Assembly (NCBI GenBank): GCA_011391125.1
Contig: JAABRE010000033.1
Span: forward strand, 1 to 51,843
Length of the DNA: 51,843 nucleotides
Direction: 5' to 3'
Source of the DNA: Synechococcales cyanobacterium S06
GTDB lineage: Bacteria > Cyanobacteriota > Cyanobacteriia > Cyanobacteriales > JAABRE01
A program made the translations under genes and the position numbers. Below the pieces are notes generated by a model. It saw only the letters and a program-made list of their open reading frames with translations, was not told the DNA's origin and searched no databases. Below, piece after piece: positions 19,213 to 24,793 of the stretch (the stretch's first letter is position 1; each line of letters starts with the position of its first letter).

Positions 19213-19275
19213 TAGGGTGCGTCACATTATTAAGATAATCATTCAAGCGATAACTTGTCTGTGTGACGCACCCTA
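19213..19275. repeat. TAGGGTGCGTCAC inverted repeat, copy b
   Basis: 63 bp with ends TAGGGTGCGTCAC and GTGACGCACCCTA. Its interior is the reverse complement of copy c (20086-20148) with few changes, so the two stand as inverted copies on either side of the decayed toxin-antitoxin genes at 19329-19875. Confidence 0.88.
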
Positions 19276-19490: not shown

Positions 19491-19558
19491 ACTTTTTTTG
19501 ATACAAAATAATATTCTAAGTTAGAATAATAACGAATAAATTGAGAAACAGAAACAAT

Positions 19559-19810
19559 ATGAACAGTATTACTATCAAAGAAAAAAATCCCATACTTTCT
19601 TCTTTAATTGAGCAAGTTAATGAATCTAAACAAGCAACTTTAATTACAATTGATAATAATAAAAAAGCAGTTTTAATCTCCCTAGAAGAATGGAGTTCCC
19701 TTCAAGAAACTCTTTATTTACTGTCAATTCCAGGAGTAAAAGATGATTTAATTGATGGTAAAAATACAGATTGGGAAGAGTGTACACCCTTAGAACAAGT
19801 AGAATGGTAA
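19559..19810 (+). CDS. Phd/YefM-family antitoxin
   Basis: 83 aa from ATG at 19559 (an upstream TTG at 19541 could add six residues). Pattern of YefM/Phd antitoxins: N-terminal DNA-binding part, ATLITIDNNKKAVLISLEEWSSLQETLYLLSIPG, then an acidic toxin-binding tail ending EQVEW. Its stop overlaps the ATG of a truncated toxin (TAATG), the usual coupling. The partner toxin is now only 21 codons, so the antitoxin is orphaned. Confidence 0.85.
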   Translation: MNSITIKEKNPILSSLIEQVNESKQATLITIDNNKKAVLISLEEWSSLQETLYLLSIPGVKDDLIDGKNTDWEECTPLEQVEW

Positions 19811-19875: not shown

Positions 19876-20085
19876 AATTTTAATGATGTGGTCTCATTAT
19901 GAATAATTTTAATGAAGTTTATTTGTTATTATTTGGGTAATAAAAACAGCGATAATATAATTGTTTTTTAATCAGATTATTAGCTATTTTACCTTTTAAT
20001 TGGTAAGGTGAGAAAACTTTTTAAACTGACTGTAGATCGCAAAATTGAGCGCAGTTTTCCCTCCCTACCATAACTATTAAATAAG

Positions 20086-20148
20086 TAGGGTGCGTCACAT
20101 AGACAAGTTATCCTTTGAATCATTATCTTAATAAGGTGACGCACCCTA
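20086..20148. repeat. TAGGGTGCGTCAC inverted repeat, copy c
   Basis: 63 bp, same ends as copy b but with the interior inverted (ATAGACAAGTTATCC...). It abuts the psbA relic. Confidence 0.88.
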
Positions 20149-20152
20149 CAAA

Positions 20153-20204
20153 CTAGGAGCGGTTAAAGCGACAGGATATTGAACTCCAGTGCGAAGTCTA
20201 AGGG
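20153..20204 (-). pseudogene. Relic of a psbA 3' end
   Basis: Hand alignment to the psbA 3' end at 24908-24960 gives 47 of 53 identical positions with one single-base deletion, which shifts the frame. The first 17 bases are identical. It corresponds to the D1 C-terminal codons from PLDLAAG to TAPS. Nothing of psbA is recognisable to its right, and the psbA terminator is absent to its left. Confidence 0.78.
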
Positions 20205-20318
20205 TTTTCACTTCTAGGTATTTATGCTTAAGATAAGTTTTCTTTATAAAGGGTTGACAATTCACCTAAATTGAAACACAATAAGACTAAAGTTTATTGA
20301 CAAAAAAAACAAATACAA

Positions 20319-21257
20319 ATGTCGAATGTGGAATTATCACCAAATAAGTCGGAAAGTAAGAAATTTAACTGGTTTTTGCTAGTTTTATTGGTTTTACCCC
20401 TGATAGTGACGGCGAAAATACAGTTTTTTTGTTATCCCATGATTACTAATGGGGAGCTAGGGAAAGCTTGTTATAGTGAACCAACCCTGAGTCAAGTTAT
20501 TCAAGATCCGCACACCCACGGTAATACACTATATAAATTAGCATCTGATCCTAAATCTGATGAAAGTTTACTTCGGGATTTGAGTTCTAAATTAGATTTT
20601 CCGAGAGTAGATTATGATCCGATTATTCTTCAAACAAAATTGTTAGACAATAAAAATACTCCGTCTGATGTTTTATTAACCATAGCTGATAATCTGATTT
20701 CACAAAACAGCCTGGAAGAAAATCAACAAGAAAATTTAGCTAAAGGTCAAAATACTCCTGAAATCCTCTTACTAAAGTTAATAGAATTAAACAATGAGTA
20801 TGTTATTTCCCAAATAAGTCAAAGACCCAAACTTTCTCGTCAAACTATTGAGATATTATGGAATAAAAGGAATTCTAACTCAACATCGAACATTTACGTC
20901 TTATCTGGGATAGCATCTCAGGAAAATACACCTAAAGAAATACTCGAAAAATTAGCGGACAGAGGAGATTGTACAATTGATAAAAAACTAGATCTAAATC
21001 CTACAGTTGAGGAAAAATTAGGGAGTAAAAAAGCACAAGATATTACGAATAAAGTTAAAAAATGTGGCGTAACAGTGGGTTGTGATCCTCAACACGGGCA
21101 AAATGTTGGTTGGGGTTTCTTAGGAGGATTAGGAATCATGGGACTTGTCTTAACCATCGGAAGTGGTGGTTTATTAGCACCTTTGGCGATCGGGGCTGGA
21201 GCTTTGGCAGGTGTAGCAACTACAGCGGCGGCCAACTTTTTGAGCAAATGTCCTTAG
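20319..21257 (+). CDS. Membrane protein with variant leucine-rich-like repeats, function unknown
   Basis: 312 aa, not recognised as a known family. A short cytosolic N-terminus is followed by one membrane span (about residues 20-37, LLVLLVLPLIVTAKIQFF) and a helical region with at least three NTP motifs: NKNTPSDVLLTIADN, GQNTPEILLLKLIE, QENTPKEILEKLAD. These resemble LRV/HEAT-like repeats. The C-terminus is a Gly/Ala-rich hydrophobic stretch (about 265-307). Cys pairs flank the spans (CYP..KACY, KKCGVTVGC). First gene of a three-gene same-strand cassette ending in an ABC transporter. It may scaffold or bind a partner at the membrane (inference). Confidence 0.8.
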   Translation: MSNVELSPNKSESKKFNWFLLVLLVLPLIVTAKIQFFCYPMITNGELGKACYSEPTLSQVIQDPHTHGNTLYKLASDPKSDESLLRDLSSKLDFPRVDYDPIILQTKLLDNKNTPSDVLLTIADNLISQNSLEENQQENLAKGQNTPEILLLKLIELNNEYVISQISQRPKLSRQTIEILWNKRNSNSTSNIYVLSGIASQENTPKEILEKLADRGDCTIDKKLDLNPTVEEKLGSKKAQDITNKVKKCGVTVGCDPQHGQNVGWGFLGGLGIMGLVLTIGSGGLLAPLAIGAGALAGVATTAAANFLSKCP

Positions 21258-21316
21258 TTTGTAGTGAGCAAAGAGTTAGGGATTGAAGTTAAGGGCTCAA
21301 GCCCTTACTACGAACA
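21258..21316. repeat. GTTTGTAGTGAG inverted-end repeat
   Basis: About 59 bp with ends GTTTGTAGTGAG and CTTACTACGAAC and a central AAGGGCTCAAGCCCTT palindrome. It fills the space between the first two genes of the membrane cassette, leaving the Shine-Dalgarno of the second gene intact. Confidence 0.7.
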
Positions 21317-21340
21317 TAAAAAACAGGAGGTAATTGAAAG

Positions 21341-21724
21341 ATGTCGAATCAAGATATAAATTTAAAAACGATTCTTGAGCAACCCTTAGCAAAATTAGGA
21401 CTCATTTTAGGGGGAATGGCTTTATTTTTTATACTCTTTTTTTCAGTTGTAGGTACTCAATATGATTTAGATAAAAAGGATGGTAGTCTTTGTATTTTCA
21501 CTGTCAACTGTAAGCAAACAATAGTAGATGGCAATCAAGAATATTTACCAAATGAAAACCATGTTAATCCTCTAAGTGCTTCAATTATTTCGGGAGGAGT
21601 TTCTACGGTTGGTTTAGGTTTATTAATTGGTTTGGGAATTTTGGATTTTCCCATTATTTTAGCTTTAGCTGGAGGAGCTGCAATTTTTTCTGCAACTTAT
21701 TCAGCTTTACAATTTTTGTATTAG
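21341..21724 (+). CDS. Small membrane protein, function unknown
   Basis: 127 aa, no family recognised. One span near the N-terminus (LGLILGGMALFFILFFSVVG, about 18-37), an extracytoplasmic-looking loop with two Cys (LCIFTVNCKQ), then a Gly-rich double span (about 80-125, STVGLGLLIGLGILDF and IILALAGGAAIF). Strong Shine-Dalgarno AGGAGG, 10 bp before ATG. The span / Cys loop / Gly-rich span layout echoes the gene before it. It lies between that gene and the fused ABC transporter on the same strand. Confidence 0.8.
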   Translation: MSNQDINLKTILEQPLAKLGLILGGMALFFILFFSVVGTQYDLDKKDGSLCIFTVNCKQTIVDGNQEYLPNENHVNPLSASIISGGVSTVGLGLLIGLGILDFPIILALAGGAAIFSATYSALQFLY

Positions 21725-21734
21725 TAAATTTTCT

Positions 21735-21795
21735 GGTGCGTCACTTTTACAAAATTAATGATTTAAGTAAAAATTTGTCGCTATGACGCACCCTA
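21735..21795. repeat. GGTGCGTCAC inverted repeat, copy d
   Basis: 61 bp with ends GGTGCGTCAC and GACGCACCCTA, between the second and third genes of the membrane cassette. Confidence 0.8.
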
Positions 21796-21849
21796 CAAAC
21801 TACTACAAACTACTAATTATTTCGGTTTTAATAGGGAGATCAAAGGATT

Positions 21850-23412
21850 ATGAACGTCATTGAATTTAAAAATGTTAGTTATCAAAGAGAGGGGATGAGG
21901 TCTCCTTTAAACAGTGTAGATTTTGCCATTAAACAAGGTGAATTAGTCCAATTAAAGGGCAATAATGGCGAGGGAAAATCCACTTTAATTGACTTTCTGT
22001 TAGGAATCAGAGAACCAGATAGCGGTGAAATTAAGGTTTTTGGTGAGTCACCTAATGATTTAAAACATAAGTTTAATACCGGTACAGTGATTCAAAAATT
22101 AAAATTTCCTAGTAATGTTACCCAGTTGGGAAAATGGATTAATTTAATTGAAAGTCATTATCCAAATGCGAAACAAAAAGTAAATTCTATGATTCAAAAA
22201 CTGGAGGCAAAAGAGACAGAAACTAAGAAAAATTCTGACCAGAATAATAACAATGATGCCACTAATTTGAAAAGTAAATTTTCAGGGGGAGAGGAAAGTA
22301 AGATATTTTTTGCCCTTGCTCAAGCTGGTGATCCTAAACTGTTAATATTAGATGAACCTACCAGTAATTTATCATCGGAAAATAGCCAGAAAATTTGGCA
22401 GCAAATTGAGCAATTTATTGCCGAAGGTAAGACTGTTTTATTTGTTTGTCATGACTCAGAAATAGGAGTTCAACCCGATAAAACTTTAGTATTAGAAAAT
22501 GGTAAAGTAACGGTAATTGAAAATCAAGAAAAAATTGGTTCGCAATTAGAATCAAAACAAGAGAATATTAAGGATAATAAAATCGGTTTAATTCACTGGT
22601 TATCTTTGTTAATTGAACATACCAAATTTAATATTTATCAAACTTTACAACTGGATAAAAAGTATTTAACAATCTTTATTATCTCAACGATTTTATTTGC
22701 GGGTGTTTTCTCTTTTCTACCGAAAATGTTACCGTTAGCTCCTTTAGGAATCAGTCATTCTTTCATCATAGCTAATGCTTATTCTTTTTATCTAGCATTG
22801 ATGGCTATGACAATAACAGGAAATACCATTTCTATTGAACGTCAAAATGAAACTTTGACGAAAATTCTCAAAACTTTACCCCTACCTCCGATTATTTATT
22901 TATCAGCTAAAGTTATCGCTTCTTTGTTAATACTTTCTGTGTCAATCTTCTTAATGATTGGTATGACGGTTTTAATAAGTAGTATTCCCACTTCAGAATT
23001 ATTAACCCTATCTTTTGGTTTTATCATCGGAGTAATACCCTATTTATTTTTCGGAGTAGCATTAGGTTATAAATTCGGACAAAAAGAAATCCAATTAGTT
23101 GCCATTGGTAGTTGTTTTCTGTTTATAATTCCTATTTACCTGAGAAGTATATTAGAACCATTTGAAGGCAAATTAGATGCCTCTAGTAGTTTAATCCCAT
23201 GGTTTAATAGTGGGGAATTATTGGGAGATTATTTAGCAGCTCATTCTCCTCTTTATCATTATTCTCAAATTATTTTATACCTCAGTAATGAAACCAAATA
23301 TGATCAATATATTTCTGTGCATGAATTTTGGTTAATCTGGTATATTATTCTCGCTTTAATGTTCGGATTATGGGCCTATAAAACTACCGTCAAAAAAGAG
23401 GCTAAAGCTTAA
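21850..23412 (+). CDS. ABC transporter with fused ATPase and permease domains
   Basis: 520 aa in NBD-then-TMD order. ATPase, residues about 1-225: Walker A GNNGEGKST, Q-loop VIQKLKF, signature FSGGEES, Walker B LLILDEPTS, H-loop VCHD. A polar Asn/Asp/Lys-rich insert (about residues 118-140) precedes the signature. The C-terminal half has about six spans and resembles ABC-2/CcmB-type permeases (NTISIERQNETLTKILKTLPLPP). A pair of such chains would form an exporter; the cargo is unknown. It is the last gene of the cassette and is the best clue that the two upstream membrane proteins are cargo, partners or targets of transport. Confidence 0.88.
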   Translation: MNVIEFKNVSYQREGMRSPLNSVDFAIKQGELVQLKGNNGEGKSTLIDFLLGIREPDSGEIKVFGESPNDLKHKFNTGTVIQKLKFPSNVTQLGKWINLIESHYPNAKQKVNSMIQKLEAKETETKKNSDQNNNNDATNLKSKFSGGEESKIFFALAQAGDPKLLILDEPTSNLSSENSQKIWQQIEQFIAEGKTVLFVCHDSEIGVQPDKTLVLENGKVTVIENQEKIGSQLESKQENIKDNKIGLIHWLSLLIEHTKFNIYQTLQLDKKYLTIFIISTILFAGVFSFLPKMLPLAPLGISHSFIIANAYSFYLALMAMTITGNTISIERQNETLTKILKTLPLPPIIYLSAKVIASLLILSVSIFLMIGMTVLISSIPTSELLTLSFGFIIGVIPYLFFGVALGYKFGQKEIQLVAIGSCFLFIIPIYLRSILEPFEGKLDASSSLIPWFNSGELLGDYLAAHSPLYHYSQIILYLSNETKYDQYISVHEFWLIWYIILALMFGLWAYKTTVKKEAKA

Positions 23413-23414
23413 AT

Positions 23415-23566
23415 TTGTAAGGTGGGTAATTGCAGCGATAAAATAGGATAATTGCGATTAATTATAATTCGCAATTGCCCACCTTTTTTAAGGATTGGTG
23501 GGCAAAATGGATTAAATATTATCTGTTTTTTGCTAAAGATTTTTCGCCATTTTTCCCACCCTACAA
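23415..23566. repeat. GTAGGGTGGGTAATTGC repeat, copy 1
   Basis: About 152 bp with outer ends TTGTAAGGTGGG and CCCACCCTACAA and an inner pair GGGTAATTGC / GCAATTGCCC. It starts 2 bp after the ABC transporter stop. Copies at 23593, 24216 and 44482. Confidence 0.8.
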
Positions 23567-23592
23567 TTTATTAATTTAACTAAAGCTTAGAT

Positions 23593-23717
23593 TTGTAGGG
23601 TGGGTAATTGCAGCGATTAATTCAGTTTTCAATTTTCAATTATAATTCGCAATTGCCCACCATTTTTAACTGTATTTTCTGGGTAATTGCTAAGATTTTT
23701 CTTTACCCACCCTACAA
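23593..23717. repeat. GTAGGGTGGGTAATTGC repeat, copy 2
   Basis: About 125 bp, same ends. The preceding CTAAAGCTTAGATT repeats the last codons and stop of the ABC transporter gene (CTAAAGCTTAAATT), so copies 1 and 2 arose by a local duplication that took in the gene's end. It stops 5 bp from the RelE-type toxin gene. Confidence 0.8.
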
Positions 23718-23722
23718 TTAGT

Positions 23723-23986
23723 TTAATCATTATAAATACTTTGACGATGACCAATCTTAATTACTTCAATTATTAAAACTTCATCACAAATAGTATAAAT
23801 TACTCGATAATTACCCACTCGAAGGCGATAAGTTGAGTAACTATCAATTATTTTTTTTACCCCCGAAGGCCGAGGATTCTCAACCAAAGAGTCAACTGCT
23901 TTTAAAATTTTAGGAATAACAGTTTTATCTAACTTTTTAAAATCTTTTTTAGCAGAAGTTTTCCATTTAATCTGATAACAACCCAT
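23723..23986 (-). CDS. RelE/ParE-family toxin
   Basis: 87 aa of the RelE/ParE fold: KTSAKKDFKKLDK at the start, the strand YRLRVGNYRVIYTI, and a C-terminal IIEVIKIGHRQSIY with the GHR motif typical of RelE-type mRNA interferases. Expected to cleave mRNA on the ribosome when the antitoxin is degraded. It overlaps the antitoxin gene by 20 bp and is read after it. Confidence 0.9.
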   Translation of the reverse strand: MGCYQIKWKTSAKKDFKKLDKTVIPKILKAVDSLVENPRPSGVKKIIDSYSTYRLRVGNYRVIYTICDEVLIIEVIKIGHRQSIYND

Positions 23987-24179
23987 CCCTTTTTAACTCC
24001 TCAATTAAATCAGCATGATCAATGGTTGCTTCATTTTGCCTTTCTGTAATAGCTGCTAAATCTTCTAAATCTTCTAATTTTTCTAACAGTTCTTCAAATT
24101 CGGCAAGGGGTAAAATTACCGCCGTTTTTTCTCCTGTGCTATTACTAATATATTGAACATTAAGAGTAGTATTTTTCAT
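23967..24179 (-). CDS. Antitoxin of the RelE-type module
   Basis: 70 aa: N-terminal strand region (NVQYISNSTGEKTAVILPLAEFEELL) as in Phd/YefM-like antitoxins, then a long acidic helix (EKLEDLEDLAAITERQ) that would wrap the toxin. First gene of the pair; bound toxin-antitoxin complexes normally repress their own promoter. Repeat copies 2 and 3 enclose the pair closely. Confidence 0.87.
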   Translation of the reverse strand: MKNTTLNVQYISNSTGEKTAVILPLAEFEELLEKLEDLEDLAAITERQNEATIDHADLIEELKRDGLLSD

Positions 24180-24215
24180 AATCTGATTAAATTAATTTTC
24201 ATAGTAAACAAAGAT

Positions 24216-24364
24216 TTGTAGGGTGGGTAATTGCAGGGATTAATTCAGAGAATAATTTTAAAATATAATTCGCAATTGCCCACCTCGACAATTGCGGTGC
24301 AGAATGGATTAAATATTATCTGTTTTTTGCTAAAGATTTTTCGCCATTTTTCCGACCCGACAAA
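24216..24364. repeat. GTAGGGTGGGTAATTGC repeat, copy 3
   Basis: About 149 bp in the same orientation as copies 1 and 2, with a degraded right end (CCGACCCGACAA). The internal block ATGGATTAAATATTATCTG... is shared with copy 1. It lies between the RelE module and the HicAB module. Confidence 0.8.
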
Positions 24365-24371
24365 ATTTTAT

Positions 24372-24599
24372 TTATAATAAATCAATAAAGTGATCAACCT
24401 CTAATCTAGCTTGTTTTAAAATATGGGATAAAGTAGAACGTTTCACTGGACGATGGGCTGGAACAGTTATTTTTAAAATTTCATCATCTAACATTTTTTC
24501 TAAACGAATATGACTCCCTTTTTGACGAATTACATTCCAACCATCTCGTTTTAAAGCGGCAATTATTTGAGCATAAGAAAGACTCGGAACTTTGCTCAT
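24372..24599 (-). CDS. hicA: HicA-family toxin (YcfA-like)
   Basis: 75 aa, HicA mRNA interferase: a dsRBD-like fold with LSYAQIIAALKRDGWNVIRQKGSHIRLEK, in which GSH holds the catalytic His, and VPAHRPVKRSTLSHILKQARL. Its ATG overlaps the HicB stop by 4 bp (ATAATG type coupling). Here the antitoxin gene comes first, the reverse of the module at 44693-45114. Confidence 0.93.
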   Translation of the reverse strand: MSKVPSLSYAQIIAALKRDGWNVIRQKGSHIRLEKMLDDEILKITVPAHRPVKRSTLSHILKQARLEVDHFIDLL

Positions 24600-24793
24600 A
24601 ATACCAATTCCCTAACAATTAGGCCTTCTTGATTTGGAAAAACGTCACATTCGAGATACAGTTCTATGGCTTCTTGTATATTAGACAAAGCCTCATTAAT
24701 ATTATCTCCTTCACTAATACACCCCGGAAGAGATGGTACATAAACAGTGTAACCTCCTTCGTCACTGGGTTCTAAAATAACAGTTAATTTCAT
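24596..24793 (-). CDS. hicB: HicB-family antitoxin
   Basis: 65 aa with the HicB RNase-H-like partial fold: LTVILEPSDEGGYTVYVPSLPGC and ISEGDNINEALSNIQEAIELYLE. It lacks a C-terminal ribbon-helix-helix or HTH domain, as in short HicB forms. Start of a two-gene unit with hicA. Confidence 0.93.
   Translation of the reverse strand: MKLTVILEPSDEGGYTVYVPSLPGCISEGDNINEALSNIQEAIELYLECDVFPNQEGLIVRELVL

Follow-up and report, generated by a model that had tools for sequence, protein, structure and literature searches.

A recurring cyanobacterial three-gene cassette with an ABCG/ABCH-like ABC protein and two membrane proteins that share a C-terminal hairpin

The window analysed here is a stretch of 51,843 nucleotides from Synechococcales cyanobacterium S06 (GenBank assembly GCA_011391125.1, contig JAABRE010000033.1). 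At positions 20,319 to 23,412, it carries a cassette of three genes, here called genes 1 to 3: two for membrane proteins, the third for an ATP-binding cassette (ABC) protein. The three genes form a conserved unit, and genes 1 and 2 are homologous in their C-terminal parts. The cysteines of gene 1 are kept or lost jointly, and the module between its membrane anchors is swapped among relatives. The class of this module matches the clade of the ABC protein and the length of one of its loops, and the model of gene 3 has a type V fold. The reading we favour, and hold to be somewhat better than an even bet, is an exporter complex built from the ABC protein and two paralogous hairpin subunits, one of which carries a lineage-specific extracytoplasmic module.

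Recurrence of the three genes as a unit

The window holds three intact open reading frames (ORFs) of 312, 127 and 520 aa, all on the plus strand (Table 1), with gaps of 83 bp between genes 1 and 2 and 125 bp between genes 2 and 3. The ORFs are not due to chance, because genome G220 has all three genes in identical order, with identities of 45%, 43% and about 64–65%, respectively. G220 was the one other genome among 386 of the phylum that was found with gene 2 as the sole query, and it was recovered with gene 3 as well. Diverged copies of gene 3 (35–37% identity) are present in genome G118 and on contig C80 of the window's own genome, where the copy is a paralogue. Two small membrane proteins precede each of these copies.

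A first scan of the genome contigs with gene 2 as the sole query gave no match; the second scan used a profile of the ABC membrane domain. The profile matched in 8 of the 386 genomes of the phylum sample, at 14 loci in named cyanobacterial records and (14 rows, E 1e-12) in 40 of 378 genomes of the order, including a few fragments. We tabulated 51 loci, with the fragment matches L046, L053/L121 and L125 outside this count, and 48 were usable after removing L120, L123 and L124 (ABC remnants or a contig-edge piece). A gene-2-like ORF lies upstream of the ABC gene in all 48 usable loci (in L055 and L058, it was identified by eye from the translation), and a gene-1-like ORF does so in 43. The five loci missing gene 1 are L047 and L108, which are at a contig edge, and L048, L050 and L090, where the sequence is present. 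As gene 2 is found beside every usable ABC gene, it is the likely core subunit; gene 1 varies and is sometimes missing. The median gaps over 39 loci, 47 bp between genes 1 and 2 and 31 bp between gene 2 and the ABC gene, appear operon-like.

The original prediction described three same-strand genes, which the coordinates and ORFs bear out, and treated them as one cassette. In the gene-neighbourhood comparison they recur together, and the outcome of never standing together did not occur. Its statement that genes 1 and 2 have no recognisable relatives did not hold, since the genome searches reveal relatives of both.

Some loci deviate from the common form. Gene 1 of L057 appears to be interrupted, with a transposase-like ORF after it, and the ABC gene of L111 is split. 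In the CG_2015-22 genome (L048:5290-6735), we observed the nucleotide-binding domain (NBD) and the membrane domain as two consecutive in-frame ORFs. Two plasmids carry cassettes, the mobilizable Nostoc pNPM4 and the conjugative Aulosira laxa NIES-50 plasmid1, and both records annotate genes 1 and 2 merely as hypothetical proteins. Three matches on Deinococcus plasmids are weaker (30–31%), and in the one region inspected, the NBD and the permease are separate genes. The Aulosira ABC protein had no match among phage records at E 1e-40.

Genes 1 and 2: fixed anchors and an interchangeable middle

Neither gene 1 nor gene 2 matches a Pfam family above threshold or any NCBIfam family. All 43 gene 1 proteins have a predicted N-terminal span. 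In most of them, the span is followed by T-x-x-x-Q-x-[SF]-C-x-P-[MIL]-[IV] or a close variant, with a second Cys within about 35 residues, and the protein usually ends in a C-terminal hydrophobic hairpin. Both cysteines are present in 34 of the 43 proteins, the first only in none, the later only in one and neither in eight (Fisher 6e-8, relatedness ignored). This joint retention or loss fits a disulfide, and hence the loop would lie outside. In 40 of the 48 loci, gene 2 carries two closely spaced cysteines.

The C-terminal hairpins of genes 1 and 2 match with an hhalign probability of 95.7. The controls stayed far lower, with no more than 0.8 for 20 column-shuffled profiles and 0.6 for eight ABC membrane segments. 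The hairpin profile omits eight gene 1 proteins in which the hairpin is unclear or the gene interrupted (C80, L057, L097, L102, L103, L106, L107 and L111). The N-terminal part of gene 1 gave no match to gene 2 in the profile comparison (probability 2.1). By their profiles, genes 1 and 2 are paralogous in the C-terminal part. Thus, the shared layout that had been noticed is confirmed in a stronger form than claimed, and the Cys pairs are real.

Between its anchors, gene 1 varies widely, and its total length ranges from 83 to 493 aa. In the window, G220 and L122, the middle is made of diverged LRV repeats, and one to four stretches of Big_2 domains occupy it in L052, L056, L093, L104, L119 and the Aulosira plasmid; in L113–L118, the immunoglobulin-like (Ig) type was assigned by length and similarity. 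The remaining loci have short linkers, some of them rich in Pro, Gln or Lys. Within one genus (g9), at one locus with the same flanking genes, gene 1 encodes 131 aa (L058), 140 aa (L055), 202 aa with one Big_2 stretch (L119) or 459 aa with four (L056). Genome G517 carries three paralogous cassettes, namely L122 (LRV-like), L116 (459 aa, Ig type by similarity) and L112 (linker).

The LRV-like repeats proposed for gene 1 are real and diverged. Against Pfam LRV (PF01816), gene 1 of the window scores 15.5 bits, below the gathering score of 21.6, and the other proteins of this class give no match (G220) or 13.3 bits (L122), but clear LRV proteins are among the matches of gene 1 in other genomes. 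Of these, L003, L004 and L009 (per-genome E 4.9e-6 to 9.3e-4) were run against Pfam, and all three are clear members of Pfam LRV (1.4e-20 to 1.3e-44). The loop is about 26–33% identical to true LRV proteins. A PDB profile search with gene 1 gave just three matches, which at E 0.8–4 are not meaningful. A fold search with the gene 1 model was dropped because the model was too poor.

Gene 3 and the match between ABC clade and module class

Gene 3 was described in the original prediction as a single-chain ABC exporter in ATPase-first order. Pfam and the structure model confirm this order, and the exporter type is supported. The Pfam scan gave ABC_tran at 2.2e-22 and ABC2_membrane_3 below its gathering score, and the Walker A, signature and Walker B motifs of the NBD are intact. 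The structure model (predicted local distance difference test, pLDDT, 75.7; predicted template modelling score, pTM, 0.75) matches the PDB structures of ABCG25, ABCG2 and ABCH-9C across nearly its whole length (Foldseek E 2.1e-14; ABCH-9C VIA Z 26.1, root-mean-square deviation (rmsd) 4.8, 452 aligned). Over the 409–459 residues aligned with ABCG and ABCH proteins, the identity is 12–18%. Under the type V definition in the classification of PMC8386196, these matches place gene 3 in type V. Gene 3 thus models as an ABCG/ABCH-like (type V) half-transporter, with a six-helix membrane domain of the ABC-2 fold. In the model, the loop between helices 5 and 6, the place of the re-entrant helices in type V transporters, has short helices within residues 451–478, and residues 438–455 have a pLDDT under 50. 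A PDB profile search with the membrane domain gave no match at E 1.

The tree of the ABC proteins has three clades, which agree with the gene 1 module classes LRV, Ig and linker. Module class changes four times over the 42 labelled rows; 200 shuffles required 12.6 changes on average and never fewer than 9. The tree covers 46 of the 51 loci, with L048, L111, L120, L123 and L124 excluded. The label Ig was tested with Pfam in L052, L056, L093, L104 and L119 and given by length and similarity in L113–L118. The label linker comes from a Pfam scan for C80, L041, L049, L055, L096, L105 and L109 and from inspection by eye and length for the others, and the label LRV (window, G220, L122) from similarity and NTP motifs, with no Pfam pass. 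In the Ig clade, Ig domains are absent in L055 and L058, most simply by loss; the interrupted L057 cannot be judged.

Two features of the ABC protein also follow the clades. The predicted extracytoplasmic loop between helices 5 and 6 (ECL3), measured with a few flanking residues, has 51–55 residues in the LRV clade (n = 4), 38–52 in the Ig clade (n = 14) and 35–38 in the linker clade (n = 28). The polar insert before the signature motif, which had been pointed out in the window, is indeed there and is specific to the sub-clade of the window, as this region has 31–43 residues in four proteins and 29 in each of the other 42.

Table 1 Features of the cassette, with positions in the window
Feature	Position	Strand	Basis or remark
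Gene 1 (312 aa: N-terminal span, KIQFFCYPMI motif, LRV-like loop, C-terminal Gly/Ala hairpin)	20319..21257	+	
Gene 1, N-terminal membrane span	20370..20447	+	Model residues 18-43, pLDDT 80-88 over residues 21-40; model poor overall
Gene 1, cysteine pair C38 + C51	20430..20471	+	
Gene 1, variable loop with diverged LRV-like repeats	20487..21068	+	Approximate boundaries
Gene 1, C-terminal hydrophobic hairpin, about residues 262-309	21102..21245	+	Low-confidence model, profile comparison
Gene 2 (127 aa: N-terminal span, Cys pair, C-terminal hairpin)	21341..21724	+	
Gene 2, cysteine pair C51 + C57 (CIFTVNC)	21491..21511	+	
Gene 2, C-terminal hairpin, homologous to the gene 1 hairpin	21572..21721	+	Profile comparison
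Gene 3 (520 aa ABC protein, NBD then membrane domain)	21850..23412	+	
Gene 3, NBD: Walker A GNNGEGKS, signature FSGGEE, Walker B LLILDEPT, switch His present	21850..22524	+	
Gene 3, region before signature motif, containing the polar N-rich insert of the LRV sub-clade	22162..22281	+	
Gene 3, six-helix type V (ABC-2) membrane domain	22588..23406	+	Structure model and structural matches
Gene 3, predicted ECL3 (helices 5-6), longest in the LRV sub-clade	23164..23310	+	

In the surroundings of the cassette, a scan of 19900-23700 found no terminator, and the number of promoter-like sites was near that of shuffled sequence (22 vs 16.2). A 62-bp palindromic element (AGGGTGCGTCA...TGACGCACCCTA) lies at 19214-19275 and 20087-20148. 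It occurs at 17 forward sites across the genome, the reversed control at none, and by eye an imperfect relative seems to be present in the gap between genes 2 and 3. Small ORFs that look by eye like toxin-antitoxin genes flank the cassette on both sides (19541-19810 and 23723-24793).

Proposed complex, alternatives and known systems

In the complex that we favour, the three gene products would form one membrane assembly, with a gene 3 dimer as the ABCG/ABCH-like (type V) ATP-driven exporter. The hairpins of genes 1 and 2 would sit beside the pump within the membrane, and their disulfide-stapled outer parts would face its extracytoplasmic side. From there, the gene 1 module (a putative LRV solenoid; elsewhere Ig-like domains or a short linker) would reach from the pump into the periplasm and act as an adaptor, gate or receptor. 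Our guess, from the modelled pump type, is a lipid-like or amphipathic substrate. A membrane-sensing role of the cassette is possible.

Several points weigh against this reading, in which we infer the physical complex, the disulfide, the topology, the direction of export and the role of the module. We recognised genes 1 and 2 by where they stand and how they are laid out beside an ABC match, and all loci came from searches with the ABC membrane domain, so the 48/48 and 43/48 figures say little on genes 1 and 2 away from the ABC gene. Gene 1 is not strictly needed, as none is seen in Planktothrix (L050, L090) and CG_2015-22 (L048). Its first Cys is lost in 9 of the 43 proteins, its hairpin is absent in C80, L097, L102, L103, L106 and L107, and the Cys pair of gene 2 is lost in 8 of the 48 loci. 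The gene 1 model is poor (pLDDT 51), and a simple positive-inside charge count near the first span did not fix the topology. In gene 3, the window, L047, L049 and L052 keep the switch (H-loop) His, but the other 6 of the 10 ABC members compared have Asn. The Foldseek superpositions have a high rmsd (8.6–14 for the full-length ABCG rows), and MacB, which belongs to another class, also matches the model (Z about 21, 368 aligned). The clade agreements fit joint evolution but are confounded with shared ancestry, and some deep joins of the ABC tree have long branches.

An alternative that we consider improbable is a stress or conflict module, with a membrane effector or sensor under Ter or STAND control, or a part of a defence island. 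The own-genome paralogue (C80) is immediately preceded by two same-strand TerD genes (L028:10328-11625), but tblastn found TerD only there among 157 sequences including the 51 cassette loci, and the Ter link was rejected as a general feature. A divergent NB-ARC/HTH (STAND-like) gene, mostly of 455–470 aa, is upstream in 8 of the 51 loci from four genera (L050, L090, L097, L099, L106, L107, L109 and L110), and on pNPM4 (L134), a NACHT NTPase beside the cassette takes its place. The STAND gene is unseen at the other 43 loci, of which 12 have under 4.5 kb upstream. Restriction-related neighbours occur as well: on Aulosira laxa NIES-50 plasmid1, an Ig-type cassette has a DrmD-like SNF2 helicase on one side and a GmrSD-type restriction gene on the other (L135:199-9405), and DrmMI or type IIG restriction-like genes are near or directly upstream at L095:32-2815 and L100:5504-9505. 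Links to Ter, STAND and restriction genes are thus seen at individual loci or in individual lineages, not across the cassettes as a whole.

PADLOC showed no excess near the cassettes (72 families in 134 proteins, compared with 78 in 143 control proteins), although this is a weak test that counts families, not proteins, and the defence-island link was rejected on this basis. The neighbour set comprises 134 of 142 proteins, with L030:14376, L030:14959, L056:12003, two of L093, L100:5504 (scanned later), L104:954 and L115:9527 left out by hand; the controls come from 20 regions of the same contigs, and the best 25 families were named. Genes 1 and 2 matched none of the PADLOC families up to E 1. 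Gene 3 had four matches, all to ATPase components, the best being mad3 at 1.3e-18.

The original prediction suggested, besides a membrane-sensing unit, a membrane-active peptide that the ABC protein exports or gives immunity to; the active products would be those of genes 1 and 2 or a further peptide that escaped notice. The peptide reading is slightly less probable again in our view. Its basis, Gly/Ala-rich hydrophobic hairpins adjoining an exporter-type ABC protein, is real, and in L049, a 69-aa Gly/Ala-rich ORF without Pfam match lies just upstream of gene 1 (L049:1058-1267). However, gene 1 is a membrane-anchored carrier of a swappable part, and its homologues reach 459–493 aa with Ig-like domains. 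No biosynthetic or modification neighbour recurs near the 51 loci among ORFs of at least 60 aa, a search range that excludes shorter precursors, and genes 1 and 2 of the window match no bacteriocin family in Pfam, NCBIfam or PHROGs. The peptide claim has no positive support.

Least probable is a mechanotransmitter like FtsEX, whose ATPase would move the outer part of gene 1 in a periplasmic event such as wall remodelling or surface attachment with nothing transported: swaps of the outer module among unrelated folds on retained anchors, the His to Asn change of the switch, FtsE among many NBD profile matches and MacB among the structural matches would suit it, but the membrane domain models with the full type V helix set, the best full-length matches are ABCH and ABCG, and most gene 1 loops are short linkers that could hardly be effectors.

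Should the exporter complex prove real, cyanobacteria would possess an ABCG-like exporter that recurs among them yet has no name, and whose two accessory protein families are uncharacterised. The natural swaps of the outer module, in one genus at one locus and among paralogues within one genome, are then ready-made constructs for studying how an ABCG-type pump couples to the envelope. We regard as doubtful the further idea of an ABCG-type pump class with a plug-in receptor, in which recognition or docking would reside on a separate hairpin-anchored subunit and the outer domain would be exchanged wholesale while anchors, disulfide and pump stay fixed. Narrow searches of titles and abstracts in the open-access literature gave no description of the accessory families or of outer-module swapping, and a prior account elsewhere is possible.

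The pump itself belongs to a known superfamily. The gene 3 model shares with ABCG2, ABCG25 and ABCH-9C the single chain with NBD before membrane domain, the six helices of the latter and a long loop between helices 5 and 6, but it is bacterial and only 12–18% identical. To our knowledge, two small co-encoded membrane proteins are not known for ABCG. NosDFY(L) and other ABC-2 complexes are bacterial pumps with accessory envelope proteins, and the ATPase chain of NosDFY(L) matches the gene 3 NBD (Z about 22–23); its NBD and membrane domain, however, are on separate chains, and its accessory proteins are not known to be related. Unlike LRV proteins (PF01816), gene 1 has an LRV loop that scores below the gathering threshold and is set between two membrane anchors. 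The Big_2 surface proteins (PF02368) resemble gene 1 homologues of another clade, which have one to four Big_2 stretches, but gene 1 of the window has none. The peptide-resistance pumps BceAB and LanFEG, compared by description only, likewise have a variable outer domain or an accessory membrane protein, but they differ from the cassette in ABC class and gene content.

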